Shown: positions 1 to 63,268 of the stretch, in pieces
How the letters are laid out: each line of letters starts with the position of its first letter
How positions within the stretch are numbered: the stretch's first letter is position 1
Assembly (NCBI RefSeq): GCF_032854445.1
Contig: NC_088297.1
Location: 13,443,335-13,507,334, forward strand
Length of the DNA stretch: 64,000 nt
Reading direction: 5' to 3'
From: Liolophura sinensis
Taxonomy: Eukaryota; Mollusca; Polyplacophora; Chitonida; Chitonidae
The notes under the pieces: model-generated
Seen by the model: the letters and a program-made list of their open reading frames with translations, nothing else
The model's database searches: none
Told to the model about the DNA's origin: nothing
Position numbers and translations under genes: made by a program

Positions 1-380
1 TGCTGAGTATGGTGTAACATGGATGTAGTTCTCAAACTTACTTGGCTGAGTATGGTGTAACATGGATGTAGTTCTCAATGTTACCTGGCTAAGTATGGTG
101 TAACATGGATGTAGTTCTCAATCTTACCTTGCTGAGTATGATGTAACATGGATGTAGTTCTCAAACTTACTTGGCTGAGTATGGTGTAACATGGATGTAG
201 TTCTCAATCTTACCTTGCTGAGTATGGTGTAACATGGATGTAGTTCTCAATGTTACCTGGCTGAGTATGGTGTAACATGGATGTAGTTCTCAATGTTACC
301 TGGCTGAGTATGGTGTAACATGGATGTAGTTCTCAAACTTACCTGGCTGAGTATGGTGTAACATGGATGTAGTTCTCATG
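1..380 (-). repeat. 43 bp tandem array made from the RFC1 exon 20 end and donor
   Basis: About nine head-to-tail copies reaching the left edge. On the minus strand each unit holds the exon end (ACATCCATGTTACACCATAC) and a donor-like CCAG|GTAAGT, CAAG|GTAAGA or CCAG|GTAACA. The copy at 341-380 is the real exon end. Confidence 0.93.
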
Positions 381-497
381 AACAAACAATGGTGCGATGC
401 TGTAATCGTTGAAGAAAAGATCTGACTTGTCTATTAGGGTCATCTTTGACGTCTCCTCTCCGCCCACAAACACCTTCCGACAAACATCAAATGGTCC
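343..497 (-). CDS. RFC1: RFC1 exon 20: start of the C-terminal domain, donor copied into an array
   Basis: Acceptor TTCCCTCCAG, donor CCAG|GTAAGT. Contains GPFDVCRKVFVGGEETSKMT and DLFFNDYSIAPLFVHENYIH, near-identical to vertebrate RFC1. The last 30 or so bases and the donor form the unit of a 43 bp tandem array filling 1-380. Reading past this donor gives a stop at once (AGG TAA), so this is the productive site. Later exons are outside the window. Confidence 0.93.
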
Positions 498-3400
498 CTG
501 GAGGGAAAACAAACCAGCAAGGAGATTCTGAGGTAACATGCAAACAGCACCTCAATCCTGTCTCCATCGCTAATTTTTTGAAAAGATGTAAAATTTCTAA
601 TAGGTGCAATGTTTCCCACACACCTCTGAAGCCCAGTTTTTGGGGGTGAATAAAACCACCACTCTTTGATAGATTCTGATGAACATCTGGAATTAAAGCA
701 GCAACCAATCTCGCCAGGACTGGATTGTAGCTTGCCTCCTTATTGATCAATACACTGCGTCAATAAGCTGAGTTCTGCAAGTTCATGTGGATATGGGTGA
801 AACAGAATGGAGGTTCTCGCAAACTAACGCAGCTAAAACGCGAAATTTTACCGTGCTTGTTAGAATGAATATACATCTCGTATAGCCCAGTATGTCTGCT
901 GTAAAATCAGGTCTTTTAGCTGCGTAAGTTCGCTAGAGCCCCCACCCTGTCTCGTTTCAATCTGCGTAAACTTCGGAAATTCCTGAAGTGCAGACTCGGC
1001 TTATAACAGCACTTCAGCCAGCTAGGGCACTATAAAACGGATGAAGAGTTTATGTCTCTGCTAATAACTGAAGACCCAAAAGGGCAAAGAGTTCATGCAC
1101 TTGTTTCTTGACCAAAGCACCCACCATTTTTAGATCCTTCTTGGCACGCGTGGAGTCTTCCTTCGCCTGCTCATAGGTCAGAGATTTACTGGTGGCACAC
1201 CACATAGACAGGTTGTGGATAACCTGTGAGACAAATCCAGCAAACAAATGAACTTAATTAAACCACACTGATTCAGGACATTCCTGTTCAAAAAATGATA
1301 CTGTGTCAGTTAAACTATCATATTGCAACTACATGACATGACTGATTAACTGATTGATTGATTGATTGGTGTTAAGCAGCACACTCAAGACTTGTTCACT
1401 TAAGATCAGCATCCTAATTCCTCAGCCTTTTCGCATTTAAAAGAGCAACATTTAGCGCATTTTACACACATTTTCAATTTGAGTTTGGAGACAAAGCTCC
1501 ATTGAATGGATTGGCCAACTTAAGGGTTTGAAACAAAGTATAAAACTATCAGGCTATATACAATGATGCCTTCAGAATATGCTTGAATAAACACCTTGCA
1601 AATATGTGAAAAGGTTGAAGAATTACAGTACTCGAACATGCGACCTGATTCGTCACGGATCTGACAGTCATCGCACTTTAGACATCAGAGCTTGCGAGGC
1701 CACCATGATATATCACATGATATGTCACATGATATTTCTGTTATTTCAGATCAAAACATTATAAACCATCTCATGTTTACAAATGTATTTATTTATTTAT
1801 TTGATTGGCACCATACTCAAGAATATTTCACTTATACAACGGTGGCCAGCATTATGATGGGAGGAAACCGGGCAGAGCACGGGAGAAACCCACGACCATC
1901 CGCAGGTTGCTAGGAGACCTTCTCACGTACGGCCGGAGAGAACGCCAGCATGAGCTGGACTTGAACTCACAGCGACCGCATTGGTGAGAGGCTCCTGGGT
2001 CATTACGTTGCGCTAGCGCGCTAACCAACTGAGCCATGGAGACCTCTGTTTGCAAATGTAGTTTGGGTGACTGTTATTATGTAAATGTATCAGATAGTTG
2101 TTCCTTTTTGAGCTGAGCACTCAGAGGCGACCACTAAATTGTGCAAAGGTACCTACTAAGACAAAAGCCATAGCCAGAGGTGGTCTCAGATGGTAGTTCA
2201 GATATTTATTTTTGAACCAGGACACAGAGCAAGCCACTTAATCGATCAAGGTACATGACAGTCCTACTGAGACAAACGCCAGAGCCAGAGCTGGATTTGA
2301 ACATGCAACCTCCTTGGTGCTCCAGCTCTGCCGCAAATCCATCCTTCCTTTGTAGACACATTTTTTTCATCATGGTGCGAACTGTCTAGGATAAAATGGT
2401 TCAAGGATTTTTGTGATGGGAGACTCACAAACCAACTCTCTTCCCTCAGGAGTGGTTATGAGAGTTACCTGTCTAACATCTTGATTAGCCCCAAGGATGA
2501 TCTCATTCAATGCTGGAGGGGGGATATTCAAGCCTTCCTTGAATACAATGGACATCATGGCACCCTGAAATGGGGAAGGAGTTCATAGCTTACAACAATG
2601 AAATCAAGTTCGGCAAGAAAATTTGAACAGAATTTAAATCCCTTGCTAAATATGCAAATTTTATACGTGGAGCACTCTTTGTTTCCAAGCTCGATCTGAG
2701 GGGGTCAAAAAATGAACCCACCCTATTTCTTCTAATTATTGGGACACCTGGTCAGATCTTTTTAGCCAGTATACAGGTAACTGTAGCAGGAGTATTTAGT
2801 TTCTTTTTTCTCACATGGTTAGACCATCTAATGAACAACATACTTAAATCTTTACTTTTCCAAAAGCAGGGGAAGAATGCAATATTCTGCTTTCAGCACT
2901 ACTAACTACATGTTGTGACCATTAAGAATCACAGATTTTCATACTATATCCCAAATTTAGGTACAAGATTGGTCCGAAGCCAAAGCAGCGAGCACTGGAT
3001 TTGAACACACAACCTAATTAATCACAAGCCTGATAATAGCAGTGATCCAGTGCATTAACAACCAGTACCAGTCTCACTCCTCCAGAGCCATATCTAGAAA
3101 AATATTAAAGGTTCACTTTCGTAGTAACATTGTGACATTACTTAAAATTTTTTTTGAAATGCAACGCATGCTTTCTATGAGCTTTTAAGGCTGTGCTAAA
3201 TTTAAGTTGTAATAGAGTTCTGATACTTTAACACAAAGTGAGAAAAGATTTCTTTTGTAAAGTTTGATTAATTTTTTAAAAGAACTACTTAAGTGTTCCA
3301 TTAGAAGTATCATTTCAAGGCCATTTTTTCATTTCGTATGTGTCTGAAAGTACATTTTTACACACACTAAACTTCAGGTGAAACACAGAAAGTTTGCAAA

Positions 3401-6400: not shown

Positions 6401-9400
6401 TGTCCATTTTAAACTACTGGGCTCTCCGTACACAAAGCTATAGCAGAATTTAGCATACTGAGAATGCAAACTTGCAAACTAGGCCTACCAGCAGATGAGA
6501 TGAAGGTGTCAAATTGCGATGAAAACAACACCTACACATGTGTGTTTTCACCACAGCAGCTAAACAGTTCTTGTTCATTCTGGTGTGATTTGAAAGACTG
6601 TCAACTTTTGCCCATATTTTGTAAACATGAATGCTTAATTTACTTAATCAAGTCACCTGCGGATGAAATTTTAGACATACAGATTGGTTTTATCTACATG
6701 TAGAAAGTAGCCGCTTACAATCACTGGACTCGAAATTTCCATGTGTCTACCCATCCAGCACATGCTGGCAAAAAGGCAAAACAATAATCTTATCTGTCGT
6801 TGGGGACATGTAAATCATGCCTGGGCAAAACTGTATACAAAAAATCACAAATCATTTTGTTTATTACACCAGTGACGGTGTTGTGCGAACTCCTAATGTG
6901 ACCGAAGCTCAAACAAATTCTGTCTCCTGATATGCCAAGCTCACACGCAGTGCTACCAAAAGGGGTAAAAACAAAACATGGTAGTTTTTGGAAAGCTCGC
7001 GTGGAGTATGTTTTCTGTGTGTAATGGAGGTTCCCCAACATAAAAACGCGGGAAAAGGAACTCTTCTGCAATAGGTCAACAGTTCCAACTGTAAAGAAAC
7101 AAATGTGCATGAAAACTGACATATTAAATTGGAATTACATGGACACGTGAAGCTGAAGACAATTCATCTTTGAAATTCATTTTTAGCTGAAATACATTTG
7201 TGCACACATTCAATGCACAACGAGGGCTGTCAGCTGACAACCGTTTGCCAGATAACGGTGTGAGGCGACTTTCTACATTGGCCTAGCATGAATAGTCGGC
7301 AGACTAGGCCTACCAGCATGTACATTCCTTGTTTGGTGTGGTCATGCTTTCAGTGTTTGGAATTTGAAGGTTTGTACAATAAATTGCCTCCTTAACACTA
7401 CTTCATTCATAGGTATATTTAGGGATGTACAAGTAGGCTTACTAGTTGGGAGACTGCACACCTCACTGTCAGTGACTTAATATCATGTGGCGAGGATTAG
7501 CAACCAAAGCTGCTAAGTGCCATGCATGGTAATGATACGAGAGGAGGACTAATCACTCTTTTCTGTCATCTTGCCGTCAACCCAGATCGTGCGAAAGTGA
7601 ATGACAGTAACTCACAGATGAAACTTCAGGTCACTTACCGTACGCAGAATAAAGCTGGTGTCACCTAACTGTGATGAAATATTATTGAATATCATGCCCA
7701 AAATCTCCAAAAACACAAACTTATTGGACTGGCATATCAAGAATATTTCAATCAAACAAATAAATCTGTGAGAACATGCTGACAGCATCACATGACACCT
7801 CATCCAGACATCAACTTATCCAGACCAAATGTTTCCACAAAATTAATTTCATCGACATATTTCGTAACCTGCAGAGATTTCAAGTCCCCTGTATGAACCC
7901 TGATTTACTGTTATTACTCACCTGACATACAAGTGTGGCTGTGGTGGTTTTCCCCACCCCAGGAGGTCCTGACAACAGCGCTGCTCGGAACCCTGAGCCA
8001 TCATCCTTCCCAAAAAATCCTCCTACACAAAACAACGCTTTGAATAACTGATTGATAGATACACAGACTGGCTGATGTTAAACACCATGTTCTGTGGAGT
8101 GAATTGATAGATACACAGACTGACTGATGTCAAACACCTTGTTCTGTGGAGTGGAAGTTTACAGGCTGGACGGGTTTCACTCCAGGCCATCCTTAAAAAA
8201 TTCTTCACTGGATTAACCCAACCCTATTAGAAAATATACAGTAGATTGGTTGGTACAATTGTTTCTTTATTTAGGCTAGTGAAAAAGATATGGATTTAAA
8301 AACATAAACTGAGAGAAAAATCAAAACAATAAAACCCCATCAACCCCCATTTTTTTTTTTTTTCTTTTTTTTTGATTGGTGTTTTACGCCGTACTCAAGA
8401 ATATTTCACTTATACGACGGCGGCCAGCATTATGGTGGGTGGAAACCGGGCAGAGCCCGGCGGAAACCCACTACCATCCGCAGGTTGCTAACAGACCTTC
8501 CCACGTAAGGCCGGAGAGGAAGCCAGCATGAGCTGGTCTTGAACTCACAGCGACCGCATTGGTGAGAGGCTCCTGGGTCACTACGCTGCGCTAGCGCGCT
8601 AACCAACTGAGCCACGGAGGCCCCTTGGAAGGTCAGTGAGCTCACGCCTAATAAACGTAGTTTTAATTATGGCCTGTCTGCCAGCAACCTGCAGATGGTT
8701 GTGGGTTTCCCCCGGGCTCTGCCCGGTTTCCACCCACCATAATGCTGGCCGCCGTCGTATAAGTGAAATATTCTTGAGTACGGCGTAAAACACCAATCAA
8801 ATAAATAAATAAATAATTATGGCCTCATGTCTTATATTATCAGACGCAATTTTGCATGTGGTCTCAGCATGAAATGAATGAATTCTGATGACATTTATTC
8901 CATATACCTGCATGCTCAATGATGTCTGTCTGTCTGTCAGTTTGTCTGTTGACAACTTTATGGAAAATATGCAGGGATCTGGAGGACATTTTGTGCACAG
9001 ATTGGGCGTGGACTAAAGACCAATTCATTACTCCATCTGGGCCGGCATCAGGGTGTAGATCAAGAGATTTTTTTTAAAAGAATTCTTCATCCCTGACACA
9101 CTTTGTACATTTAACTGTGGTCTTCCATTCTTTAAATTTATTCATTTGTTTTTTGTTAAATGTCAAACTCCAGAACTTGACACACACTCTACATACATGA
9201 CAGCTGTATTTATTTACTTATTTATTTGATTTGTGTTTTAAGCCGACAGCTGTATGTAATGCAGTGAAAGAAACTTATTTTTTATCTATTGTCTTTAAAG
9301 TACTACTTTTTTTCTCCAAAAATCTGAATACAGGCCTATGGGTATAGCAATCTTCTGATGATTTCTAGTTTTAAAACTTCTTGAAGGTTAGCATATTCTC

Positions 9401-15400: not shown

Positions 15401-18400
15401 TATCCATAAGAATGACTCGTTCAGTGAATTTATCCATAAGAATGCCTTGTTCAGTGTGCTTTCATCCCAATTTCTAAATGCCCCTCAAACAAGTGATTTT
15501 CAAGCATTCAGCTGACAACGCCAAAAATACCACACTGACCATTACCCAGCAGGTGTTTTTATAGGAGATTACCTGGGGCATGAAACGCGGGTAGGAGGCA
15601 GGTGACTTGTTCGTTTGATGCGTGCCAAAGGTCGAATTTGTCAGTGACTACGGTAATCTGGTTTAACTGCCCTTGCTAGTAACATGGCTTTCATCCAGTT
15701 TCTGGTCTTGGGTCGGTTTATCTCCGTCGTGTGAATAATAACCAGATTACAAGACCCAGATACCTGGAGGTCAGGATGACGTTGGCTTTACTAAACCGAG
15801 TTAAATGTGACCATGTGAACGGACAAATCCCTGAACTGGCTTGGCCTCATGGTCGTGTGAACGCATGCATTTTTACAATTGGCTTCGATCCAGATTAACT
15901 TTTGGCCATTGTGGTATTGTGAGTGAATCGTTTTTGCACAAATTGTAAATATCAAATTACTCAAATGAATAAATAAAAGAAATATGAAATACTGATTTAC
16001 TAGCAGTATCAATGTTGTACTTACCTTAGCACTGGCTGGTCCTGCATTTGTTCCTGGTGAAGTTTTCTTTGTTTCTGATTTATTAGGTGTCTGGCAAAGA
16101 AATGAACAACTACCACAGTTACTTTCACAGCCTTAACTAAAATAAAATTTACATCTTGGGTTTTTTTTTTCTTTATATCATGCACTCTGTCAAATTTCTA
16201 CCATTCTATCTTTTGAGAAGGCTCATTCAACAAAACGCAAGGTCCAACAGGACAGGGCATTTTTTCACTTGTTTATGTCTCGCAGGGTTCCAAAACATGA
16301 GAAGAAATGTTTCTCAAGGACTGAATGCATCTTGTTTTCCAGCACAGTCAAGATCTATCATGAAAAAAAAATAACTTTTTCAAGAACTTTCAAGATCTGG
16401 AACACCTTTCAACAAAATTGTAAGAGTTATCCCAAAATAACTCTTTTTTTCAAGGACTTTCTCGAATATTTTCAATAAAATTCAAGAACTTTCAGCGATT
16501 TCAAGGATCAGTGGGGACCTAGGTCATGGACAAGTAAAGATATTCTCTCTCAAGATACATCTTGCTCCATCTGCAATGAGGCAAAAAATGAAAACAGCCA
16601 CGAACAAGTATTCTGATGTTTTACATGACACCACAAAATTCCCTTCTTTACAGAATATTTCTAAGCAAAAAAAAAAACAAAAAAAAACAAAAACACAATT
16701 AACAATAATATTTATTTTCTAAATCTTGGGGAAATTTGTTTTAATCAATAAATCATCACTGTAAGTCAGTCATATACTCAATCAAACTGAATACCCTAAA
16801 AGACATAAATTTTCGCCCACAAAAGTCACAAAATATGATTTTAAAATTTTCCAGTAGAATATCATCCCGTGTTCCAAGCAAACCTCAAAACACATTTCCA
16901 AAATCAACAGGACTCCGAATCATCAAAAATAGGCAAGTTAGTCATGGTTGAAATTCAAGCTCTTTTAAGGTATGTGTTACTTTTACAGCATAATTTGTTC
17001 ATAAAAAGCTGTTTTCACAGGTATTTAAAACACACACTGACATCAAAAGGACTAATTTACATGTACCTCATGCTTTTTAGGTGTGACCACAGACTTCCTT
17101 GGACTCGATCTTTGGTTAACAGGTGCTGCTTTTGTTTTCTCTGGGGTGTCTTCCACCATTACTTTCGATGATTTCGCCAAAGATGACAGTCTATTCGACA
17201 GTGAAGGTTTGGCTGTGGTAAATTAATTTAATACACTTTCATGCAAATGTCGGTGAAATTTGCTATACATTGTACAAGTGCATGACCCTTTAATACACCA
17301 GGGGCCTCCGTGGTTCAGTTGGTTAGCGCCCTAGCCCAGCGTAATGACCCAGGAGCCTCTTGCCAATGCAGTCATCGTGAGTTTAAGTCAAGCTCATGCT
17401 TGCTTCCTCTCCGGCCGTACGTGGGAAGGTCTGTCAGCAACATGTAGATGCCCCTGGGGTATTAATACACCATAACTCTGCAATCAAACCTGCAGTAACG
17501 GCTTCACCTGACTGTAAATGTATTATAGTCTACACCAGCAGGGCTTCCGTGGCCAAGGTGGTTAGAGTGCCAGCACGGGGCAATGATCCTGAAGCCTTTC
17601 ACCAATGCGGTAGCTGTGAGTTCAAGACAACCTCATGCTGGCTTCCTCTATGGCCATGCATGGGAAGGTCTGCCAGCATTCATCTGCTGGCTTCCTCTCA
17701 CACCGTACGTGGGATGGTGTGCAAGCAACCTATGGATGATCGTGGGTTTCCCCCCGAGCTCTGCCCCGGTTTCCTCCCACCATAATGCTGGCTGCAGTCG
17801 TATATGTGAAACGTTCGAGTATGGCATAAAACAGCAATAAAAAAAATCAGGATAACCCAGAAAGGTGGATGTCCTAATAAAATAGGCCCAAAACTGGGCA
17901 AAGGTAAACTAATTTGCTGATTACGAGACAGACGCACACGTGAAGAAAATGTTCAATGTCTTCGGGTACAAGCTGCAGTGAACACGCTTTTTACATTTCC
18001 ATCAACGACAAGTTGTATCACTGTGTAAACAAAATGGTCTAAAATTCCACCCATTTAAAAAGAAGGAAAGAAAGAAAGGAGAAGAAATATTAGAATGAAT
18101 TCACCAAGTAAACAGAAAGGACACTATGAAAAGGACGACTAAATAATCTGCTCACACTAACACATGCATGCAGCCAACTTTTTAAACTTTTTCCATCTTT
18201 CTAAACAAAAACTATCAAATTTAACAGAAATTAACAACAATAAATATGTGCATCAAGCGATGAAATGCAATCTGTGGTATGTTTTGTCATACATATACTA
18301 CAAATCACCAGGAAAGTCAAATTCTCAATAGCACAATTTTAGATCAGCAGACACACTGAAAACCGATTTAAGTTAAGATATTTTTAGGGACAGGAGAGTT

Positions 18401-21400
18401 CTACTCACACGGAGATGTCTCTTTCTTTGGAGGTGAAGACAAAGATTCTGTTTTTGTCTGTAAAGGAAAATATTCATTCATTTAGTGCTAAACTAAAAAG
18501 TATGCGACAGCTCTCAGACTTAAGAACTGAGGAAACCAGTGACAACTACCACAGTCTCATCCATGAGGAAACCAGGTGAAGTGAGACATCTTTGAGAGGC
18601 ATTTAGAAGTTGAGTTGGATAACATAACGAGATATATGGACAACAAATAAATAAACACAAGTCGTTATCCATATATCTCGTTATGTTGTACAGGTGAAGT
18701 GAGAACATTAATTTTTATTTCTTCATTCATAATTATTTTGATTAGAATGGAACACCTTACACCTTAAACGGCCATAAATTTCGTGCATGACTAACTTGCC
18801 CTTTTTTCCTCATTCTGAGAGTTCTATTGATTGTAGAAAGGTGTTTTGAGGTTTACTTGGACCATGGGATGATATTCTGCTGGGCAAGTTGTAGCACCAA
18901 AAAATAGCACCTTGTGATGTTTATTTGTGTCTAAAAATGCATTTTGACCCAAAGTATTCTTCAGTTAAATCATCTTGGTCAAATTTATGGGCAGAGGTGT
19001 CCGGAGTGCTTGGAGTATTGTGACAAACCCCTCTTGACCTTACAAAAGATGGCATCTATATAGACAGAGCTGGATTTGAACCTCACTGGCAAAGGTATGA
19101 TCAGATGTGGAAAGAATGAAGCTTTCATCAAACGAGCCAGCAAATGCCCAACCCGGCAAATATTTATTTATTTATTTGATTGGTGTTTTACGCCTTAATC
19201 AAGAATACATGTATTTCACTTATACAATGACAGGTAGCATAATGCTGGGAGGAATCCGGGCAGAAAACCCATGACCATCCACAGGTTACCGAAAGACTTT
19301 CCCACGTACGGAGGGGAAGCCAGCATGAGCTGGGGTTGAACTCACAGCAACCGCATTGGTGAGAGGCTCCTGGGTCATTACGCTGCGCTAGCGCACTTAC
19401 ACACTGAGCCACAGAGGCCCCCTACCCCTTAAATAAGCAGCCTAACAAGGACATTGCCTTACCCTCCTGAACTTCTGACTTTGCTGAACTAGCTGTTCCA
19501 ATTAATGCCGCTATCTTCTTGGACTTCTGACTTTGCTCATCTAGCGGCCCCAATTATTGCCCCTACCTTCTTGGACTTCTGACTATTCAACTAGCTGTTC
19601 CAATCATTTGCCTCTATCTTCTTGGACTTCTGACTGTTCAACAAGCTGTTCTAATTACTGCCCCTATGACTTTGCTCACTAGCTGTTCCAATTATTGCCC
19701 CTACCTTCTTGGACTTCTGACTTTGCTCATCTAGCTGTTCCAATGTTTTCTCAAAGTCTGCATCCTCATGAATTTCATCGTCAACATTATTTGAGGGTTT
19801 GGAATCATCTTCCTGAAAATAAAAGTAAGAACGAAAATTTTCTTTCCAAACCTTATTGACACTGAATTTAACAGCATACTGTTGTCTATATATCTAGCTA
19901 GGAACACTCCAAATAAACTTACCAGTTTTCTTTTACTCGCTGGTTTTCTGTCCACTCTCTTGACACTCCCACCTCCAAAGAAATCTGCAGCACTGACAGG
20001 AGTTCGCTTTGTTTGTTCTTCCACTTTCTTCTTCACTTCAGCTACAGGTCTACTGGGGGTTTTCTTCATGAAGGCCTTTAGGGGAGAGGCTCTGGTCTTT
20101 CTACTACAATCCTCGTCTGAAATGTCAGCATCCACACAAACAGTTATAAAGTCATTGTACAAATTTCAGAGTAAACAGGCCACATTTCCCACAAAGTAGA
20201 TGACATTTCATTCCATTTTTAAAACAGGGCTGAACTAGAATAGAAATGGATTTATTTATTTATTTGATTGGTGTTTTACGCCATACTCAAGAATATTTCA
20301 CTTATGCGACAGCGGTCAGCATTATGGTGGGAGGAAACCGGGCAGAGCCCAGGGGAAACCCACGACCATCCACAGGTTGCTGGCAGACAGAACAGAAAGG
20401 GAGATAAAATTACTGCTGTAATTTCAAAGCATGTAGGTAAGACAATCATTTTCTACCTATATATGCATCATCAATTTGTGCTTAACAACAATAAATTCTA
20501 CTTCAGCAGCACCATTTTAATTTAGTGTGTTACAGGTGAGCGAACTCTACAAAATCACATGTAATTGCAAATCCACCTTTTCATTTTTTTTTTTTGCAAT
20601 CTTAATGGTTTAGAAAACAATTGCGAAAAAGGAAACAGTCCGTATCTCCCCCAAATTAGATGACTTTTTAGTTCTTTTGTTTGTATACTGGGCTGTAACA
20701 TTGAAAAAAAAAAAAATTTATTCTGACTGTAAAACAATCCGTTAAACTGGTGTGACCTTATGTGAAAGGGGTCAGGTTTATGGGTGGAGGAAACCTCTGC
20801 CCTTTGCCTAGCACCTGACAATCCTCCTGACTTAACGCAACAGCTGACCCAGCAACAGGTGCTTCCTCATAGACTGTTTATTGTCACCAACGACCCACAA
20901 ACAGCGAGTGTTGGGAAACCTACAGTTCCTGTCCGTGCCTGGATTGAACTCACACAGCCCCACTAGTTATGATCTACTGCAAGCACACACATGTATAACA
21001 CACCTGAGTCCACTATCACCACAGACTGATATTCAGAGCTCTTCCGTTTGGATTTCTTAGGCACTGGGTCCTCTTCAGCTGATGAGTCTGACAACAAGAT
21101 TGTATTAATTGTCATTTTAGTTGGTGCGGCCCTGTCTCCCTCCCTCTCCAGTTGTCTCTCACCAAACATATAGGAAAAAATATAGCAGGTTTTCTTTTCA
21201 TAAAAATCTAGTAGAAATTTGGAAATATAATAAGTTTTTAGCAAATATAAGAGGATCTAAAAAATTAAATATAGGATATATAGGAACACTAAGACCTGTT
21301 AGTGTTTAACTGAAATATCAATCCAGTTTTAGCTTACATTATGTACATGATTACTGTAGGCTTACAGACAAAGGAAGTCAGAGTAAAAGCACAAAAGTTA

Positions 21401-24400
21401 TCAAATTGCCATTCAGACTATGTATACTGTATTTAAAGGTAATCTTTCTGAGAAATATATATTTATTTATTTATTTGACTGGTGTTTCACTTATACGACG
21501 GCAGAGAAGATTATGGTAGCAGGAAACAGTCACTGAGGCTGGGTGAAACCCACGACCATCCGCAGGTTTCTGCATGACCTTCCTGCATGTGGCCGGAGAG
21601 TAACACAATATGAGCTGCACTTGAAGTCAGTCACTGCGACAACATTGGTGAAAGGCTCCCGAGTCAATGTAATGTGCTATCACTCTAACCACTAGGCCTA
21701 TGTTGATAAATATCACTAACGATAACAGTTACAGCTGCACATGAACTCAGAATGGAGCTTTATGTTGACCTATATAACATGTGGGAAGGTCTGACAGCAA
21801 CCTACGGATGGTCGTGGGTTTCCATTGGGCTCTGCCCGATTTATTTCCACCATAATGCTAGCTGCCGTTGTATAAGTGAAATATTCTTGAGTACAGCGTA
21901 AAACCCCAATCAAATATATTAACACATTTAACACATTAATTGAACCACATAACAGCCACAAAACTGCCTCGTACTTAAGGGAGTAGATCACCTGAAGTAA
22001 AGTTATTCCGCATCACCTCAAAGGCCATTTCATGCAGTTTTGGAATGTAGTTTTTTAAGTTTGAGATACTTTAATCACTGACAGAAAATCATGAAACCAC
22101 ATCTTGAATCGGCATACTTTATTTCAAAGCGAACTGTTCTTTAAAGGGATACAGGACTGATGCTGATTGACTGACAGTGGAGATAAAATTTCCATGATTA
22201 AATCCTGCAGTCTTGGGTCTCACCTGAATAAATCTGGCATACCTAAAATGCAGTTTAGACTAACCACAGTCTGGTCTTGCCTATCTCTTACACCAGCCAA
22301 TCGGCAACGATTCTGTTTGCCTTTAATTATCAACAAGGACTCACGAATCCTGACTTCCACAGCCTATTTCTCCCCAATCTCATGAAGTTCTCGTGAATCC
22401 TGGCTTCCACAGCCTATTTTTCGCACTCTCATGAAGCTCTCATGAATCCTGACTTCCACATCCTATTTCTCCCACTCTCATGAAGTTGTCGTGAATCCTG
22501 ACTTCCACGGCCTATTTTTCCCCACTCTCAAGAATCCTGACTTCCACAGCCTATTTCCCCCACTCTCATGAAGTTCTCATGAATCCTGACTTCCACAGCC
22601 TATTTTTCCCACTCTCATGAATCCTGGCTTCCACAGCCTATTTCCCCCCACTCTCATAAAGAGCTTGTGAATCCTGATTTCCACCGCCTATTTTTCCCAT
22701 GTCTCTATCAACCTACCTGAATCATACACAATGCCTTTCCTACGGCCAGCTTTAGATTTACGTTTCTTAATGACTTCATCAAACTCATCGTCACTGTCAC
22801 CAAGGGTAACCTGTGAAGACAAAATCACAAGTACATGTACATTGCATCTACAAACAGTATGACCAAATGATCAACAAACAAGCTCCTGCAAAAATTTGTG
22901 ATCATCTTGCAAAGTGGTCCCTTGTCATCAAGTAAAACCGGCCCTGATAGCACAGTTGGTACAGCGTCCGCTTCGGGAGCGGTAGATCCAGGGTCAATCC
23001 TGGGTCGAGTCACATCCAAGACATTGAAAGAGAAAGTTGTTCCTTCCTTGCATGGTGTTCAGCATGAAGGGGATAGTGCAACCACTGGCTGACCTGTATC
23101 AGTATAACGGCTCGGGCTGGTTAGCTTACTTGCCTTCTGTAAGGCGTCTCAGTGAAGCATCAGTAGATAAAAGAACGGTGGATATTCATCCTCAACAAGG
23201 AGACATTATATGCACTCTAAGGATTTCTTGGTCGTCATATGACAGAAAAATTGCTAGGTACGAAGCCCAAAGCACTCACTCATTCACTCAAAGTAAATGG
23301 CCCATTTTTAAATGTGGAAAAGAACAAATAAACGATGTGAGTACTCGAAGGCTAGTAGGTTGCCCGGCCAGGGCTATTATACTAATACGGGTCAACCAGT
23401 CATTGCACCATACCCTTCATGCTGAATGACAAGAGAGGAAGTTACAACTTCCTTTTTTAAGGTCTTAGGGGTGACTCGACCCAGGATTGATCCTGGATCT
23501 ACCGAATAAACAATATGAACTTCACAGGAAAGAGTGTGTAAACATATCACATATATTGTTTGATTCACCAGTTAGAAGAGAAGAGCATTTCAAAGTAATT
23601 TTGGTACAGTAGGTACTGTAAGTTGAGCATTTTTCCAGCGGAATATCTTGCTTGATTCTGACTGATTAATTCAACTTACGGGGCTGTTGCGTTTCTTGTG
23701 AAGTTTCAATCATTTACAAAAACCTAAATGACAGCATCAAAAGTATGGCCGTAAGTGGGAAGGTCTGCCAGCAACCTGCGGATGGTCGTGGGTTTCCCCC
23801 GGGCTGTGCCCGGTTTCCACCAACCATAATGCTGGCCGCCGTCGTATAAGTGAAATATTCTTGAGTACGGCGTAAAACACCAATCAAAAAAAAAAAAAAA
23901 AAATCAAAAGTATGGTTTTAAGGCCTTTTTGTGCTTCTAAAAGTGCATTTTTATGCGCCTGACTTCTCCTGAAATACAGTATTTACAAGTACAAACTGCC
24001 CTATAACTGATGAGGCAGCCATTATTCTGTATTTCTGTCCTGTCGTGTCTTACAATGGTGAAGAATCGCTTTAAAAATTCCTGGAACCAGATCACCCCCC
24101 AAATTTAAAGGATTCAAAGATCAAATCCCTCCATAACTTCTTCTCAATGAGGGATTCATTCTGTGTAAGTTATGAGAATATTTATTTATTTATTTGATTG
24201 GTGTTTTACGCCTTACTCAAGAATATTTCACTTATAAGACGACGGCAAGGTTGGGCGGAAACCAGGCAGAGCCAGTGGGGTAATCCCACGACCACCCCCA
24301 GGGTGCTGGCAGACCTTCCCATGTACAGCTCGAGAGGAAGCCAGCAAGAGCTGGACTTGAACTCAGAGCAACCACATTGGTGGGAGGCTCCAGGGTCATT

Positions 24401-27722: not shown

Positions 27723-50369
<22,647 letters not shown>

Positions 50370-51580
50370 GGCAGCTTTATTTTAAGCCGTGATGCAGAAC
50401 TTCAGAGTTACAAAGGTGTTTGAAATGAACGAATGCAAGGTTTATGTTGATGAAGATGGTGATGATTATAGGGTATCAAGTGTTCAACATGGCAGAAGAC
50501 TTAATGGACTGTGCCGAGGCAGATTTATGATAGAGGTTTCATTTAGAAAGTATTTTATACCTTCAGGATAACAAGGATGTTTTAGAAAGCTACGAGCGTA
50601 ACTTTGTTGGAGAGACATTGTTTGCAAAGAAATCGGCGCCATTTCCATTGCCTTTTTGATGTTTGAAGAAACCTTGACCATCATGTTTAGTACTCTCTAT
50701 TATCAGGAAATGTTGATTATTTCTCGTCTTTTGATCAAAATCCAACAAGGTGTAAAACTCCGTCAGCAAGGTTGAAATCTTGTGTGACATGCAATATCTT
50801 GATTCTGATATATTTTGTGATATGCTCAGAAAGAAATGGCTACCATTGAGTTTTCTTCACTTTAGTGCGAATTTGATCTCTGGGCTCTGATGTCAAGAGA
50901 TGTTACCTGGTGCAAAATTAGCTTACATGGTGCGTAAAATGCGAAAATTATACCACTGATGGTGCCATTCATTTTAATCAATGCAACCTACATGTATACC
51001 TCTGTGTTATGCTACCGGTGCGAATCTTGTGAACCAGATTGGACTACTCAGTAAGTAGTGACAAACTTCTGTTCACTAAGTTCAAAAATATCAGCTAGGC
51101 TGGTTATCTGACTTTTTTATTTTGATAATTTTAGTACCTCAATAATCAAAACATTCTCCATACTTTTAAATTAAAGTGGGTGGTGCCTCTGGGCACGAAA
51201 TACCTCTTATATATGTTAAATTAATACCACCAGTGAAGACATGAAATATATCAGATAGATCCTTTCTGCTTTATATAACAGTTGGAAAAGGTGAGAGACC
51301 AGTTAGATATCTCAACCCTAAGAAAACAAATAGTAGTAAACATTGTTTTGTGGCCCTCAAATTCAGCTCATACATGTGAGGCAGATTTTGTGAAGATAAG
51401 TACATCATGTTGGACAACAGCTTGGCTGGGACCAAATTAAATCTCTCTTTAGAGTGGGATGTCATATTGTAACCTGGGCTGAAAGTCATCAGGAACTGTG
51501 ATGAAGGGATTGAGGTAAATCCATGAATAGTAAGGCGTGAACTGTCACTGATTGCTGCGCACGTAGGACCAATCCACTCC

Positions 51581-52530
51581 TAGATATTGAAGCGGTTCAC
51601 TGATATTCAGCCAAACATCAATACCAGCACATTGATGTCCAGCCAATCCTAAGTATCCATACAATGACTTCCAGCCAGTCATCAATACCAACACATTGAT
51701 GTCCAGCCAATCCTAAGTATCCATACAATGACTTCCAGCCAATCATCAATACCAACACATTGATGTCTAGCCAATCCTAAGTATCCATACAATGACTTCC
51801 AGCCAATCATCAATACCAACACATTGATGTCCAGCCAATCCTAAGTATCCATACAATGACTTCCAGCCAATCGCTCATACCTACACATTGATATCCAGCC
51901 AGTCAAAATTACTGGTACACTAATGTCTAGCTGATCATATATGTCCTATTAATCATTAGTACCGGTTCATCGATCACTTCAGTCCAGCCAGTCAGATTGT
52001 CATATGTCTCACTTGTGTTGATGTATCATTCAACTTGGTTACCAATTTCACGAGAAATCCTAAGTATCCATACAATGACTTCCAGCCAATCATCAATACC
52101 AACACATTGATGTCCAGCCAATCCTAAGTATCCATACAATGACTTCCAGCCAATCATCAATACCAACACATTGATGTCTAGCCAATCCTAAGTATCCATA
52201 CAATGACTTCCAGCCAATCATCAATACCAACACATTGATGTCTAGCCAATCCTAAGTATCCATACAATGACTTCCAGCCAATCATCAATACCAACACATT
52301 GATGTCCAGCCAATCCTAAGTATCCATACAATGACTTCCAGCCAATCGCTCATACCTACACATTGATATCCAGCCAGTCAAAATTACTGGTACACTAATG
52401 TCTAGCTGATCATATATGTCCTATTAATCATTAGTACCGGTTCACCGATCACTTCAGTCCAGCCAGTCAGATTGTCATATGTCTCACTTGTGTTGATGTA
52501 TCATTCAACTTGGTTACCAATTTCACGAGA
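51581..52530. repeat. Higher-order satellite: 475 bp block in two copies
   Basis: Two 475 bp blocks (51581-52055 and 52056-52530) with the same end ccaatttcacgaga. Each is built of 64 bp subunits with taagtatccatacaatgact, four in the first block and five in the second, plus a unique part. Confidence 0.92.
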
Positions 52531-55435: not shown

Positions 55436-55438
<3 letters not shown>

Positions 55439-55482: not shown

Positions 55483-55483
<1 letters not shown>

Positions 55484-56237: not shown

Positions 56238-56395
56238 TAAATTTATTTATTTATTTCATTTGCGACGAATATTTCACTTTTCACTACGTCGGTTTGCATT
56301 ATGAAAAGCGGACAGAGGCCTCAGGGTGATGGAAAACTTTGGTGGGCGTGAACTCACAGCAACCATATTGGTGAGAGGATTCTTGGTCAAGTGTC
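56238..56395 (-). mobile_element. SINE A, degenerate
   Basis: Minus strand, (TTTA)n start and gtgaactcacagcaacc near the head. Confidence 0.55.
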
Positions 56396-56453
56396 AGTGA
56401 CCCCCGCCCCCTCCCCACCTATTTTTTACATAATAATTTAAAACCTTTCCATT

Positions 56454-56454
<1 letters not shown>

Positions 56455-56494
<40 letters not shown>
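56455..56494. repeat. Poly(T) run
   Basis: About 38 consecutive T, 270 bases before the MBOAT ATG. Length is prone to error. Confidence 0.9.
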
Positions 56495-56497
<3 letters not shown>

Positions 56498-56584
56498 TTT
56501 GAACAAACGGACGAAAAACGGCATTTACTGCAGCTACAAAATTGTCTGAAACCTTTAAAGAGAATTGTTTGCAAATATGTCATA

Positions 56585-56596
56585 AACCACGTGGTT
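56585..56596. promoter_or_regulatory. Palindromic CACGTG E-box near the MBOAT start
   Basis: AACCACGTGGTT, a perfect 12 bp palindrome with a CACGTG core, about 170 bases before the MBOAT ATG. A typical bHLH-zip target; function is inferred. Confidence 0.45.
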
Positions 56597-56606
56597 TTGT
56601 TTACGT

Positions 56607-56616
56607 CGCCATCTTG
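56607..56616 (-). promoter_or_regulatory. YY1-type site upstream of MBOAT
   Basis: Minus strand CAAGATGGCG, the usual YY1 core, 11 bases after the E-box palindrome. Confidence 0.45.
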
Positions 56617-56623
56617 ACCGCGG

Positions 56624-56635
56624 TGCATTGTGGGG
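56624..56635 (-). promoter_or_regulatory. ZNF143/Staf-like core upstream of MBOAT
   Basis: Minus strand CCCCACAATGCA, similar to the CCCANAATGCA core bound by ZNF143/Staf. Together with the YY1 site it suggests a housekeeping-type promoter. Confidence 0.35.
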
Positions 56636-56765
56636 AGATGCTGGGTAACCCGGTTCGCGACAGGAAAAGCGTTTTGCAGTCAGGTCCAGCGAGGAAATTT
56701 GGCTGTGTTTTGTTTTTTTTTTAACTGAGCATTTTGGCTCATAGATGCAGGGCTGACGGTCCAGG

Positions 56766-56846
56766 ATGGTGATGAAAAGCAACTTTTACGCAGGCTCCCG
56801 ACTTTTTACGCCCATATCGGACGTAGTCGGCCTGCCGATCGACAAG
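56766..56846 (+). CDS. MBOAT exon 1
   Basis: ATG at 56766 is the first in frame after a TAG at 56742; a second Met follows at 56772. Encodes MVMKSNFYAGSRLFTPISDV then VGLPIDK, with donor AAG|GTAAAC, phase 0. Confidence 0.85.
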
Positions 56847-59800
56847 GTAAACTTCATTTGGGATGTTGTTGTTGTTTCATATTGTTGCTGTTTTCTGTTT
56901 GGATCTTTTGTACCAGTGCTGTACGCTGTCAAGACTTTCTTACACTGATGATTATTTGATTAAGGGCGAGGGTGCATGATTTGAAAACAGTAGCAATCTT
57001 CACTGAAACCTCCCACCTGTAATTTAACCTGAGTTACTAAGGAATCATTAGTGAGTTCTTATTGTTCACCTGTTCGACAGAGAGTAGTAAGACAGTCGAC
57101 TTCAGGTATTTGTACAAGCACCATATTACAATTTATATTGATAACTGCGCAGTGAAAGCTCCAGTGACCTAAAAGCCATAGTCATTTCTGATTTGTCATT
57201 TCTCTTTTTCCCCTCGACCGTAAACCTATAATTTATTTACACCCCCCTATGCAATATTCAAACAGGACATGTGCCACTGGCACTATTAGAGGGCTAGTAT
57301 GAGAGCTACATTATGTAATATTACAAAGGCTACATGAATATACATGTACATATATACATATATAGATGCAGTACTGAAGCTCTTCTATGGCAGGCTGATG
57401 AACAGAGAACCACAGAGTGAAAGGTGACAGAATTGGTCGGGTAACTTAGCTATTTAGATACGGATTCTTGGTTAACATTTCCAGCAAAAGTAAAAGCCTG
57501 CTTTTCATCAACATTAAAGTCCCATCTTGCATTGCCTTTCAAGGTATAGTTATAATTCATACACAACAGCATCGTATGCTAATATTTATGCTACCACGAG
57601 GGGTCTCTGTGGCTCAGTTGGTTAGTGTGCTAGCGCACCATAATGACCCAGAGGTCTCTCACCAATGCGGTCGATGTGAGTTCAAGTCCAGTTCATGCTG
57701 GCTTTCTCTCTGGCCATACGTGGGAAGGTCTGCTAGTAACGTGCAGATGGTTGTGGGTTTCCTCCCAGGCTCTGGCCAGTTTCCTCCCACCATAATGCTG
57801 GTCACCATCGCATAAATGAAATATTCTTGAGTACGGCGTAAAACACCAATCAAATAAATAAATAAATAAATTATACTACCATGACTTCTAGCGAGGTAGG
57901 CCTGTTCCTTGTTGCAATATACATAGCTCATGTATCTAGATCGAGTACTGCAGCCATGAGAGTTACAATGTGAAAGTCTCCCTAAAATCTTTCTGATTAA
58001 AGACGTTTCTAGGTAAATATTTTCAAAAAATACCATGCTGGAAAGCAAAAGTTTTAATTACAGACCACAGAGTATATACAGACTTAGCGATGCCAAATGA
58101 TTTCACTAACAAGCTCTTGTTTTCATCTTTATGACATTTATGCTGTATTTCAAAACATGTTGTTGCTGTTGTCTTCAGTCTGAACTATGATCAAAAATAA
58201 AATCATAACCATTAAAAGAACAAGCTTGTCACTGGGATTTTTGACCTCAGTCAGTCTGTATATACACTCTGGACTCTCAGTACAACTTTTGCTTTGCACC
58301 GTGACTTATTTTTGAAGATATTTACAGATAAATCTCCACAATCAGAAAGTTGATATTTTAACTAAAATAAGATCTTGCATAATAGAAGATTATTATAATA
58401 TATGTATCACAAGTGTTAAAATTTTGGTAAATGACTTTCAAATGTCACTCTTCCATAAATGTGCTTTGCATTGTGCATAAATCCATATAATGATCTAATA
58501 CGTGTATCAAGGGATATTTTCTGGCAACAAAGTCGGACATGCCAAAGGGGAAGCGTCTGATTCTGTTTATGGGACCCAAAATTAATCTAGATTAGGCCTA
58601 GATGTATTCAACTTTTGATTAACACGTGATGCAGTATGCAAGTTAATGTATGACTTTATGACTCCATTAATCTAACAGATTTGTCAAGCTTGGTAACTGT
58701 TGTACATTAGTAGTAGCCAGCAGTTCAAAAACTTTTTTTCTATTTGAATTGACAGCATAATACTGGAAATGTATTTCTCTCTATAATTTTTATACAATGA
58801 ACAAACAAGTAGACAACATTACAAGTACAACATTGTCTTTTGTCAACAGAAAATTTATTATGTATGGAATGAATTTGGAAATTGTACAATTGTATACCAC
58901 TCCTATTCATTACGACACATGCTTCAGTGTATTAACACTGTGTATGTCACTGTGTTGTGACAACAAAATGTTTCACTAAGCTGTCGCACATATCTGTTCG
59001 TACTTTCAAAGGTTTTAATGAAGAAACATTCCGATTATGAGTGTGTGAGCGCTTGGGGTTTAACACGGTACTTAACAATTTTTCAGTCATATGATGATGG
59101 TATCCTTAGGGCGCGTGTAATGTGCCTCCTTAATGCAGGAGGATGGATTTCCACTGCTCTTTTTATCTTGAGCTGCTACCCAAGGCGAGTAAGCGGCACC
59201 ACCGAAGCCGTTATACTGATATGGGTTAACCAGTTGTTGCACTATCCCCTTCATGCTGAATGCCAAGTAAGGAAGTTAGAACTTCCTCTTTTAAGGTCTG
59301 TGACTTGACCCAGGATTGACCCTGGATCTACCGCTCCCGAAGCGCTCTACCGCTCCCGAAGCGCTCTACCAACTGTGCTATCTGAGCCGGTCTGCTCAGA
59401 GGAATGCTATGACTCAAATGCCACCCACCCAGAGCCATTATACTGATATCGGTCAACCAGTCGTTGTACTATCCTCTTCATGCTGACATTCTGATTTTGT
59501 ATACTTGTTTTACTATGTAATTATTCAGTGAAAGCTATGATATTGTGATGATTTGGCTTACATTTAACATCTAGTTTCACAATTTACCCATTTCTGTATT
59601 ATAATTTATGTCACAGGCTGCCAGAGGTAAGCAGACTTCATAATTTGCCCTACTTATAGATTGGTAGGCAGATTTGTCTCCAAACATGAGGGAGATGTGT
59701 ACATATACAACCAGGTGTATGTATGATTTGGTAAACGACCTAAAATTTTGTCCCAAAAATTGGATTTTTAGAGACAAATGAATGTCTTAAAATATTACTT

Positions 59801-62800
59801 TTTGTGCTGAGACTTGTAGTTTACTCTCCAAATAAACCCCAAATAACCTCTGTAAGATCTATACAACTCTGAAAAGCAGGTAAAATGATCGTTGTTATGA
59901 ACGAAATTTGAAAAACAGAACAAAACACAAAAATGATTCAAAATATCAGATGAAAGAGCGTGGAAAGTTAATTGCAAATGTAATGTCTAATATTTTTTTC
60001 GTCTATTTTTTCTTCCAAAGAAAAGGGTATTTGAAAATATTTTTGTATGGTGAATATTTGGGACCACCTTTTGGTACCTATCGTCCTTGCATTATAATGC
60101 TCTATATAGGGATGTGATGGCGTGCCCCCCTTAAACAACTTAGTTTCAAATGTCTTTTCTCATTGAAGAAAATTGCCCAGAAAGTGTTTATCACCACATA
60201 TATAACTAACAGTTTCAAACTCTTTCATCTAACGTCATGTAATTTTTATGTTTTCTCCACCTAGTTCAAATTATTTACCACATGTACATGTATGTGTACA
60301 TACTATAATTGCACTAAAAAGTAGTCCAGAAAAGAGCAGTTTTGAAGCCAGATAATAGTCATAAATATTACTAATGGTGATAAAACCTACATTTTTCAGT
60401 AGTATATTATTTGACCTACATGTAATCCAAGTAAACCTTAAAAAACTATTTTGAGTTAAATGTAAAGCAGAAAAAGGTAAAAAAAAAAAAAAACACCCCA
60501 AAAAACAAACACCAAAACTTTTTTATGGCCGAGATTTTAAGTGAAGTTCAGTACAGTATTTGGAATAGCCTCCTGGGCTTCATGTTACATGTGTCTGTAT
60601 TGAGGAGTTCATTATGTAGTCATGTGTGTATGTACTTAAACAAACACGGCAGATTATCCTGCAAGAATAGGAAGATGTGACAAATTTATATGTTGTTCTA
60701 ATAATGAAGTCTATTGATAATGTCAACATTAAATCTGTCCCAGTCATGAAAAATGGACACACTCCAGTGTTAACTGTTATGCGGCTGGAGTTTGTGAGTA
60801 TTGTCTTGATGTTATTGAATAAATGAGTATTCATTTGGACAGAAATATGGATATTTGACCCTGGAAATCATTGTAACCATTTGGAAATCACAGTAAATCC
60901 CATGCACGTGTAGGGTTGTTATTATTCATAGGTATTGTTGAACTAAAAAACTATGTTATGTGAATTGTTTAAAGGCAGATTGAACTCCTGGTGGGTGATT
61001 ATTAAATGGTTTAGAACTGCTGTAGCGGTGTTGGTTGTGTAAACCGATGCTGCTAAACCTTCTTTTGTACCTCGTCAAATCCATTGAATCCTCGGTCAAG
61101 GAATTTAATGAGGCGTGAAATAAGGTTCAGGTTAGATATCAAACACCAAGATTTTGACAAGGTGCCAAACAAGGTTCAGCGCCTTTGGGTTACACAACAG
61201 ACACCTAGGCAAAGGTGTTAAAGTCTGTTCTGCCCCAAAAAATTAAGGAAATGAGGCAAAACTGCATATTTCACGTAGCTTTTTTCTTCCGTCCTCTTTC
61301 ATTCTCTCCACAGAAGTCATGCATTTTAGCCCAATCAGCGGCGAGCTTAGCCATTGAACTTGACTTAGATACATCATAGCTGCGTATGCATGACGTCGTG
61401 TTTTATTATTGCATGATGTAAGACAGTAAAAGCTTACCGTACATGTATAATGACGTCATACCACTGAGCTCAGGTTGGAACGTCATGAAACAAAGGTTTC
61501 TTTTTCCTAGCTATGGCATCGAGGTATAAAATATCAAAAATGTCAAAACAAAGGCGATATATATATAAAGTGTGCGAAGTAACACTTTTATCACTGAAGG
61601 AAATTCCGATAGTTTGCCTTTATATAAATCATAAAAGCAAATATAACAAATAAACAAACTCAACTTCTTTTATTTGCATTAGCGTGAATAGTTGACATAT
61701 CGGTGTATGCAAATTAGTTCATTTGTTACCTTGGTCATATTTTTGGCAACTTGTTGTTACTTTTTTAAGCAAATAATGAGAAAATATGTTAAGGCATTTG
61801 GATGATAATTTTGCTCGGGCAGAGCATAATATACAGGTCTATTCGCCAGGGCTCTGTTTGGAATTGGGGCCTCCGTGGCTCAGTCGGTTAGCGCGCTAGC
61901 GCAGCGTAATGAACCTGGAGCCTCTCACCAATGCGGTCGCTGTGAGTTCAAGTCCAGCCCATGCTGGCTTCCTCTCCGGCCGTAAGTGGGAAGGTCTGCC
62001 AGCAACCTGCGGATGGTGGTGGGTTTCGCCCAGGCTCTGCCCGGTTTCCACCCACCCTAATGCTGGCCGCCGTCGTATAAGTGAAATATTCTTGAGTATG
62101 GCGTAAAACACCAATCAAATAAAATAAATAAATCTATTTGGAATTACATGTAATCCCTTTGATCTTTTTCCTAATTTGCAGCCACAAATGCCCCCAACTG
62201 GGAACTAATTTCCCAAAATGTACACTAGCTTGACTGTAAATACTTTTTGAACAATGGGTCTAGTGTGAGGTGTAACATGACAAATGAAGTTTTGTGTGTG
62301 TTTGATTATGGTTAACATAAATAAGGAAATCAGTATTGTCCCTTTTCTTGTAGTATGTGAATTTGTACATTTACCTTACTTGGAAAAGTAGGCAGGATCG
62401 TTCAGACTGTCCAGCTTAACTGATTTCATACGTGCACATATTCATGAGATTTTTCTGAGGCTACAGTGCCCTTAATTTCACATCTGCACTGTACATGTAT
62501 AATACCTTTGATTGAAGATTAAAGGCCCGTGTTCAAACCCGACCAGGGAATTTGTAGATTCTAACCCTCTTATCCTGTGTGCAGCCTTAGTGACAATAAG
62601 CAGTCAGCAAGCTTTTGTGGCCGTTTCTGCCGTCTAATGCTTGTTGAAGACCACTTGTCCTTCACCAGTGTGGTGTACATATCTGTATGTTTGGGAAAGT
62701 TCGTCAGTAATTGCTGAAGGTCAGTGGTTTAACCTAAGTGCTTTGGTTCCCTCCATTCAAAAACTCGCCACCGTGATATGTACAAGTGAAAATTCTTCAG

Positions 62801-63268
62801 TATGTGGTTAAACAGCATTTAAATACATGAATAAATCTAATACATGTAGTCCTCGAACAAGATCAAATACATAAATAAATCAAGTCCTGTCATTCTTGAG
62901 CAAAGATCAGCAGTGATCATTCCTGAAAAACTTGGTAGGATAATCCTGATGAACTGAAGGATTAATCCTGCACAAATGCTCAGCACCTCTTTATCTGCAT
63001 GATGCACATGTATGTGTATCATCTGTGTTTCAGATTAGCTTCTTGGTGTGTCAAATTGTAGCACTGGGGCTGACCATCCTGTTCCGCATCGACTTTCAAC
63101 TACATGTACATCTGTGTTTCAGATGAACTTCTTGGTGTGTCAAATCGCAGCGCTGGGGCTGGCCATCCCATTTCGCACATACCTGTCGCCCTCCAAAACC
63201 AGCCCTAAGATCCGCCATTGTGTTGAGCTTGTCACTGGCCTCCTTCTGGCCGGTTTTTGTTTCGGATA
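56766..63268 (+). CDS. MBOAT1/2-type lysophospholipid acyltransferase, first two coding exons
   Basis: Membrane-bound O-acyltransferases of this group re-acylate lysophospholipids (PE, PS, PC) with acyl-CoA in the ER membrane. The spliced product reads GSRLFTPISDVVGLPIDK from exon 1, then MNFLVCQIAALGLAIPFRTY and HCVELVTGLLLAGFCFG from exon 2, collinear with the human MBOAT1/2 N terminus (LQPLSNAVQLPIDQVNFVVCQ... FCFGWY). Two hydrophobic segments fit the first membrane helices. Only about 76 residues are present; catalytic Asn and His are outside the window. MBOAT1 and MBOAT2 cannot be separated from this piece. Intron 1 is 6.3 kb with SINEs. Confidence 0.85.
57598..57873 (+). mobile_element. 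SINE A, full length
   Basis: From the A-box (tggctcagttggttagtgtg) to (AAAT)n, in MBOAT intron 1. Confidence 0.88.
59035..59400 (-). mobile_element. SINE C, near full length
   Basis: Minus-strand copy whose head contains a tandem duplication of about 19 bases (taccgctcccgaagcgctc twice). Confidence 0.8.
59415..59490 (-). mobile_element. SINE C fragment
   Basis: Second partial body right beside the copy at 59035-59400. Confidence 0.6.
61867..62135 (+). mobile_element. SINE A, full length, near consensus
   Basis: The cleanest copy in the window: ggggcctccgtggctcagtc start, B-box gagttcaagtcc, tail caatcaaataaaataaataa. Confidence 0.9.
62500..62845 (+). repeat. Dispersed repeat D, copy 2
   Basis: B-box-like gttcaaacccgaccaggg, gccgtctaatgcttgttg, then gtgtggtgtacatat; its end resembles a SINE A tail. 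Confidence 0.5.
63034..63122 (+). repeat. Duplicated acceptor and start of MBOAT exon 2
   Basis: 89 bp tandem copy: TGTGTTTCAG, then sequence reading ISFLVCQIVALGLTILFR, about 80% like the real exon start, then the real acceptor again. Out of frame with the real copy. Confidence 0.85.
63123..63268 (+). CDS. MBOAT exon 2
   Basis: Acceptor TGTGTTTCAG, donor TA|GTAAGT, phase 0 to 2. Encodes MNFLVCQIAALGLAIPFRTY, LSPSKTSPKIRHCVELVTGL, LLAGFCFG. A degraded copy of its start, with its own acceptor, lies 89 bases upstream (63034). Using that copy would meet a TGA after 30 codons. Confidence 0.9.

Follow-up and report, generated by a model that had tools for sequence, protein, structure and literature searches.

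The 64,000-nucleotide stretch of the genome of the chiton Liolophura sinensis analyzed here (assembly GCF_032854445.1, contig NC_088297.1, positions 13,443,335 to 13,507,334; hereafter the window) contains three gene loci, delineated by ab initio exon scoring, and several tandem arrays whose repeat units run across exon/intron junctions of these genes. The left-hand gene, on the reverse strand, was identified as RFC1 from the match of its joined exons to human RFC1 (6vvo_A, E value 1.8e-154), and the middle gene, on the forward strand, as PASK from its match to the PASK kinase (3dls_A, E value 1e-99). The top protein-database match of the PASK query came from Liolophura sinensis itself with a reported identity of 84%, which is probably an underestimate as the query lacked some exons. 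The Liolophura sinensis PASK protein P0001 was covered in the window by exact runs of at least six residues for 1142 of its 1143 residues, the remaining one being encoded by a codon interrupted by an intron, and its spliced alignment returned 18 exons. An amphioxus source, suggested by published work on similar arrays, was rejected on this exact match to Liolophura sinensis, a member of the Polyplacophora (Mollusca). The right-hand gene is represented by a single exon of 48 residues, which an earlier reading made from the DNA letters without database searches (the sequence-only reading) had labelled as MBOAT; this label was not confirmed, the exon returning no Pfam families and no PDB matches.

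The exon map consisted of 38 exons and 74 junctions: 19 exons and 38 junctions in RFC1, 18 exons and 34 internal junctions in PASK, and one exon with two junctions in the right-hand gene. Exons were numbered among the modelled ones only, hence the offset from the numbers of the sequence-only reading. RFC1 borders were obtained by spliced alignment to the Mizuhopecten and Gigantopelta RFC1 proteins combined with ab initio models; the RFC1 model is confined to 343-22810, any exons beyond these limits falling outside it, and the exons near 18409, 13227, 12624 and 11564 are weakly conserved and less certain. PASK borders were taken from P0001. Within this gene, the boundaries of intron 9 (in the region 37300-37860) are ambiguous, as the exact P0001 run starts at 37843 without a preceding AG and a normal acceptor occurs at 37860, which is possibly a slip in the PASK annotation. 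The start of exon 10 was placed at 37843 in the junction scan, the array-overlap tests and the unit-identity comparison, and at 37860 in the unit anatomy, the per-gene tests, the test excluding wholly exonic and whole-exon placements, and the tests omitting the right-hand gene. The donor of PASK intron 12 at 41653-41654 appears to be of the GC type (CAAGAG/GCAAGT, the slash marking the splice site).

Copying of the junctions was evaluated by local alignment of 60 bp around each junction (40 bp of exon and 20 bp of intron) to no more than 700 bp of flanking sequence of the same junction, using the flanks of other junctions of like kind as 1321 controls. Clear intron-side copies were detected at five of the 74 junctions with scores of 84-110, the top control reaching 28. 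These were the donors RFC1 343 (exon 343-497, score 107), RFC1 19705 (exon 19705-19812, score 93) and PASK 48420 (exon 48287-48420, score 110), together with the acceptors PASK 46266 (exon 46266-46465, score 101) and 63123 of the right-hand exon 63123-63268 (score 84). The PASK donor 42808 (exon 42683-42808) scored 35, above every control and far under the other five, and is probably a sixth copied junction, with an irregular repeat involving about 11 exon bases. The other 68 junctions did not exceed 22, and the resulting two-humped distribution of scores indicates that junction copying is real. The six junctions listed in the sequence-only reading, four donors and two acceptors, were thus recovered, five clearly and the donor of its PASK exon 12 (modelled exon 13) as a weak, probable case. 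An additional array at 22340-22699 starts 17 bases away from the RFC1 donor of exon 22717-22810, and by eye it is similar to the last few bases of that exon; it was missed by the junction scan and represents a borderline seventh case. The arrays and their exons are as follows.

343 to 497, reverse strand: RFC1 exon, the 19th modelled (exon 20 of the sequence-only reading), with the real donor at 343; supported by the 6vvo_A match and by two molluscan RFC1 alignments.
1 to 378, reverse strand: donor array with a 43-bp unit made of about 35-36 exon bp and 7-8 intron bp; 8.8 copies in the window including the exon copy, the array being cut by the window end.
19705 to 19812, reverse strand: RFC1 exon, the fourth modelled (formerly exon 6), with the real donor at 19705.
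19454 to 19744, reverse strand: donor array detected by the junction scan (score 93), unit of about 51-52 bp made of 39-40 exon bp and 12-13 intron bp; five extra copies, one of them truncated, with GT missing in three of the five.
22340 to 22705, reverse strand: borderline array, its units about 38-49 bp long, starting 11-17 bases off the RFC1 donor of exon 22717-22810; the units repeat the exon end GATTCA without the donor.
42683 to 42808, forward strand: PASK exon 13 of 18 (formerly 12), identical to P0001.
42803 to 43318, forward strand: irregular donor array, probable case (score 35), basic period of about 38 bp.
46266 to 46465, forward strand: PASK exon 15 of 18 (formerly 14), with the real acceptor at 46266, from P0001.
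45722 to 46298, forward strand: acceptor array, unit of 80-82 bp made of about 48-49 intron bp and 33 exon bp; six decoys with intact AG.
45655 to 45732, forward strand: degraded and older copy closing the PASK exon 15 array on its outer side, 69% identical to the exon copy.
48287 to 48420, forward strand: PASK exon 16 of 18 (formerly 15), with the real donor at 48420, from P0001.
48376 to 49031, forward strand: donor array, unit of 106-110 bp made of 45 exon bp and 61-65 intron bp; five decoys with the donor unchanged.
63123 to 63268, forward strand: candidate membrane-protein exon, MBOAT label unconfirmed, based on an open frame and splice signals.
63020 to 63197, forward strand: two copies (63020-63093 and 63109-63197) of the acceptor and start of the right-hand exon at 89-bp spacing, 87% identical over 69 bp.

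The unit lengths given in the sequence-only reading (43, about 52, 80 and 110 bp) were borne out by these measurements, and the 89-bp repeat likewise, as a pair of copies. Across the four clear arrays of RFC1 and PASK the exon contributes 33-45 bases to the unit. Nine repeat units were searched with nhmmer, and within the window their matches were confined to their own arrays, the one exception being a short match at 58236-58263 from a non-junction array at 8051. An origin of the arrays as copies of mobile elements is unsupported, since within the window the units recur locally only. The repeat at 8051-8153 had been considered as the array of the former RFC1 exon 6 and was rejected, being intronic and 28 bases from the nearest acceptor; the correct array is that at 19454-19744.

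Minisatellites that copy an exon border in this way are known as mirages, and their founding paper is reportedly that of Canestro et al. 2002 in Nucleic Acids Research (NAR). The chiton arrays show the same organization as the mirages of amphioxus, whose units, from tens of bp to about 160 bp long, span the junction and duplicate the exon border at its 5' or its 3' side (PMC3087553, PMC3902484; here and below, published work is cited from the accessible parts of the papers). The chiton periods of 43, 51-52, 80-82, 106-110 and 89 bp fall within this range, the units span the junction in five clear cases and one probable case on both the donor and the acceptor side, and many decoys keep their AG or GT, as they do in amphioxus.

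At all three PASK arrays the annotated protein uses the exon-side sites, joining exons 13-14, 14-15 and 16-17. Provided that the annotation mirrors the real mRNA, this would be in line with the amphioxus mirages, for which no interference with regular splicing is reported (PMC3087553, PMC3902484). After tandem duplication of a unit across a junction, the protein would survive only with the exon-side site, and for this reason the intact exon would stand as the end member with the copies running outward. The sequence-only reading had described this arrangement for each array; the PASK annotation agrees with it, and the arrangement, needing no special cause, adds no evidence to that reading.

As also anticipated there, the use of a copied site led to an early stop in nearly all cases. 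Among the decoys listed, i.e. those above a score cut (above 3 for the donors at PASK 42808), stops were met by 7 of 7 at RFC1 343-497, 9 of 9 at PASK 42808 and 6 of 6 at PASK 48420, one of the latter being a chance GT. At RFC1 19705-19812 the proportion was 2 of 3; the third site, 25 bp out, is a chance GT that no stop precedes. All 28 AGs listed for the PASK 46266 acceptor, true copies accounting for six of them, led to stops (25 before the real exon and three inside it), and the single decoy acceptor at 63123 met a stop in all three frames. These stops, together with the many decoys retaining GT or AG, would suit a functional role, in which copied sites tune or buffer productive splicing by leading transcripts to early stops and mRNA decay. 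However, stops would be similarly frequent in random intron sequence, and those found after decoys are therefore no sign of design.

The strength of the decoys also followed no rule across the arrays. The real donor of RFC1 343 scored 8.7 and its copies 3.5-7.0; at RFC1 19705 the real donor scored 4.7 and the usable copies 4.7 and 5.0, the other three of the five copies having lost the GT; at PASK 42808 the real donor scored 5.4 and the nine listed copies 5.9-8.1; at PASK 48420 the real donor and all copies scored 2.8. As decoys were weaker, about equal, stronger or equal with respect to the real site depending on the array, selection weakening the decoys was rejected. Moreover, the exon- and intron-derived parts of the decoys showed no significant difference in variable columns (23 of 154 versus 28 of 134, P = 0.22), the truncated RFC1 copy at 19656-19691 and the degraded PASK copy at 45655-45732 being excluded; this comparison, like those of unit anatomy and unit identity, did not extend to the 22340 array or to the irregular array at PASK 42808. 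The inconsistent decoy strength and the similar variability leave the suggested buffering or tuning of splicing unsupported, and with splicing undisturbed in amphioxus as reported, we regard it as very unlikely. The same P value failed to show repair of the decoys on the exon template, which was considered as a way of keeping their exon part alike. Decoys differed from the exon copy in 62 of 898 cells of the exon part and in 87 of 711 cells of the intron part, the cells being non-independent, and the lower figure does not show repair because the exon copy is itself free to change in its intron part.

Copied AG/GT sequences might alternatively act as dual-specific or recursive splice sites for a stepwise removal of the intron. 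The copied donors of PASK intron 13 (TTAAG/GTGAGT) have T-rich sequence upstream and a donor score of 8.1, and arrays of dual-specific splice sites are known in human UBC and other tandem-repeat genes (PMC10809524). As in these genes, each chiton unit bears a splice site; however, the UBC repeats are coding and their sites are both donor and acceptor, whereas the chiton copies are intronic. When 153 intronic AGGT sequences were scored, three array sites ranked among the best 16, but with acceptor scores of 0.3-0.8 and with eight others higher, and stepwise splicing at the copies seems highly improbable. An equally low probability was assigned to an assembly artefact, in which mis-joined reads would have generated the copies. 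One amphioxus mirage did have an aberrant draft assembly (PMC3087553), but the chiton units carry both shared and private changes and the outer copy of the PASK exon 15 array has diverged to 69% identity, neither of which is expected from read stacking.

We consider that the chiton arrays are mirage-type minisatellites, tolerated as by-products of tandem duplication and leaving the protein unchanged through the use of the exon-side site, and we assign to this reading a probability of about 0.75. It draws on the junction scores, the local recurrence of the units and the exon-side sites of the annotated PASK protein. According to this proposal, a short segment across an exon/intron junction would have been duplicated in tandem and the array would then have expanded, with partial homogenization through unequal exchange. 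As the spliceosome would pick the exon-side site, the protein would remain the same and selection would tolerate a largely neutral array. A repeat catalogue prepared at offsets of 25-259 returned 15 loci, 12 of which were classed as true tandem arrays, and each catalogue locus overlapping modelled coding sequence was found at a coding border (short-period, low-scoring repeats being uncounted). This position fits a filter by which duplications inside coding sequence are purged and those at its border persist. A degraded tandem copy across the PASK stop codon, which has likewise become non-coding, also speaks for the proposal.

Other observations are mixed or weigh against the mirage interpretation. 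The data derive from one assembled haplotype, with splicing read from the annotation, and a Liolophura RFC1 protein was absent among the 120 matches listed in either of two RFC1 searches, so that RFC1 splicing rests on relatives. In amphioxus globin mirages the array edges are excluded from homogenization (PMC3087553), and a similar effect, which speaks for the proposal, was weakly present in two of four chiton arrays. The unit least like the others was the exon copy, both in PASK exon 16 (0.911 in mean identity versus 0.914-0.952) and, once the degraded outer copy (0.719) was left aside, in PASK exon 15 (0.889 versus 0.902-0.925). This edge effect is small, and it did not occur in the RFC1 arrays, where the exon copy was the most alike (0.865) or tied at the top with two units (0.953). 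Outward decay from the exon was observed in PASK exon 15 only, where the younger inner set retains 91-93% identity to the exon copy, and the other three arrays examined showed no steady trend; from its sequence, the PASK exon 15 array has probably expanded more than once. Finally, when whole arrays were placed at random, 3.33 were expected to meet a junction against the five observed (P = 0.21; with six, P = 0.077).

This last result would be in keeping with ordinary intronic minisatellites of a repeat-rich region that overlap exon edges by chance, without any junction preference. The same explanation is favored by the choice of the window as a striking one and by the six of 12 tandem loci that were not counted as junction-spanning (8051, 15369, 22340, which is borderline, 27437, 40659 and 51608). 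However, long arrays placed at random often meet a junction, and the repeat unit is the fairer object to place because array growth adds copies and no new junctions. Random placement of the unit gave 0.76 expected junction hits against five of 12 (P = 4.9e-4; with six, P = 3.5e-5), and 0.80 expected when wholly exonic and whole-exon placements were excluded (P = 6.2e-4 for five). Without the right-hand gene, 0.65 hits were expected against four of 11 (P = 2.6e-3). The excess was weakened by the addition of three long-offset pairs, to five of 15 (P = 7.4e-3) or, without the right-hand gene, to four of 14 (P = 0.027), and the literal use of Tandem Repeats Finder spans gave three of 10 (P = 0.022). 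Support within single gene bodies was weak, with two of five loci in RFC1 (P = 0.044) and two of four in PASK (P = 0.056; three of four with the weak array, P = 0.0037). None of these P values is clean, as the pattern was spotted before testing, a striking window was chosen and the loci are few. The claim that arrays line up with junctions beyond chance therefore depends on the null, holding as an enrichment for units and not for whole arrays, although the trend is consistent. On balance, chance overlap appears unlikely.

Other repeats were observed in the window. A 56-bp array of 6-7 copies occupies 40659-41053 in PASK intron 11, away from junctions, and a large nested array at 51608-52530, with 64-bp units in a 475-bp duplication, lies between PASK and the right-hand gene, where no exon is known. 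Short-period, low-scoring repeats occur inside coding exons (e.g. 50263-50314), and a degraded tandem copy spans the PASK stop codon (50206-50282 and 50395-50469), the copy falling in the 3' untranslated region and being non-coding. At 17302-17678 a sequence starting GGGCCTCCGTGGTTCAGTTGGTTAGCGCC occurs twice at a distance of 239 bp, which we take to resemble a tRNA-derived short interspersed nuclear element (SINE).

The sequence-only reading had also proposed that the arrays are by-products of a duplication process favoring exon edges. This is compatible with the unit-placement results, which lend it moderate support within the window (5/12, 4/11) and weak support per gene. The simplest idea for the junction excess is that duplication would prefer exonic DNA, with copies inside the coding sequence removed by selection. 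As a tentative extension, rather doubtful at present, duplication in chitons may favor exon edges, or exonic DNA with selection leaving those copies that straddle an edge, and several percent of junctions may carry mirages.

Among other known systems, the tandem genomic duplication of exon segments containing AGGT, a route to intron gain (reviewed in PMC3443670), similarly involves a short copy that carries splice-site-like sequence and is tolerated as splicing removes it; there, however, a new intron arises within an exon, whereas the chiton arrays lengthen an existing one. An intronic minisatellite has been described in another mollusc, in intron 3 of the abalone TSSK1-like gene, with a 27-bp unit and length polymorphism between individuals (PMC6905558); its position relative to the junction is not given in the accessible description, in contrast to the junction position of the chiton arrays. 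Amphioxus mirages, too, show length instability between haplotypes or cells (PMC3087553). Reports of mirages in the literature searched, which covered few subscription papers, were confined to cephalochordates (PMC3087553, PMC3902484), with none found in a mollusc. The type of structure is thus known from amphioxus, while its phylum and its density, with five or six cases in three neighboring genes within 64 kb, look new.

The occurrence of clear mirages in a mollusc, several of them in three neighboring genes, suggests that the underlying process is either convergent or widespread. If an edge-preferring duplication does operate in chitons, these would represent a second, independent animal lineage with mirages. 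Such arrays, already discussed in amphioxus as source material for new introns (PMC3087553, PMC3902484), would then act as a permanent reservoir of preformed splice sites from which introns could be lengthened or gained and alternative exons formed. Five reference-quality chiton genomes have been compared (PMC12005716), and chiton genomes would allow a genome-wide measure of the duplication bias, of the tolerance of splicing and of the role of mirages in intron gain.

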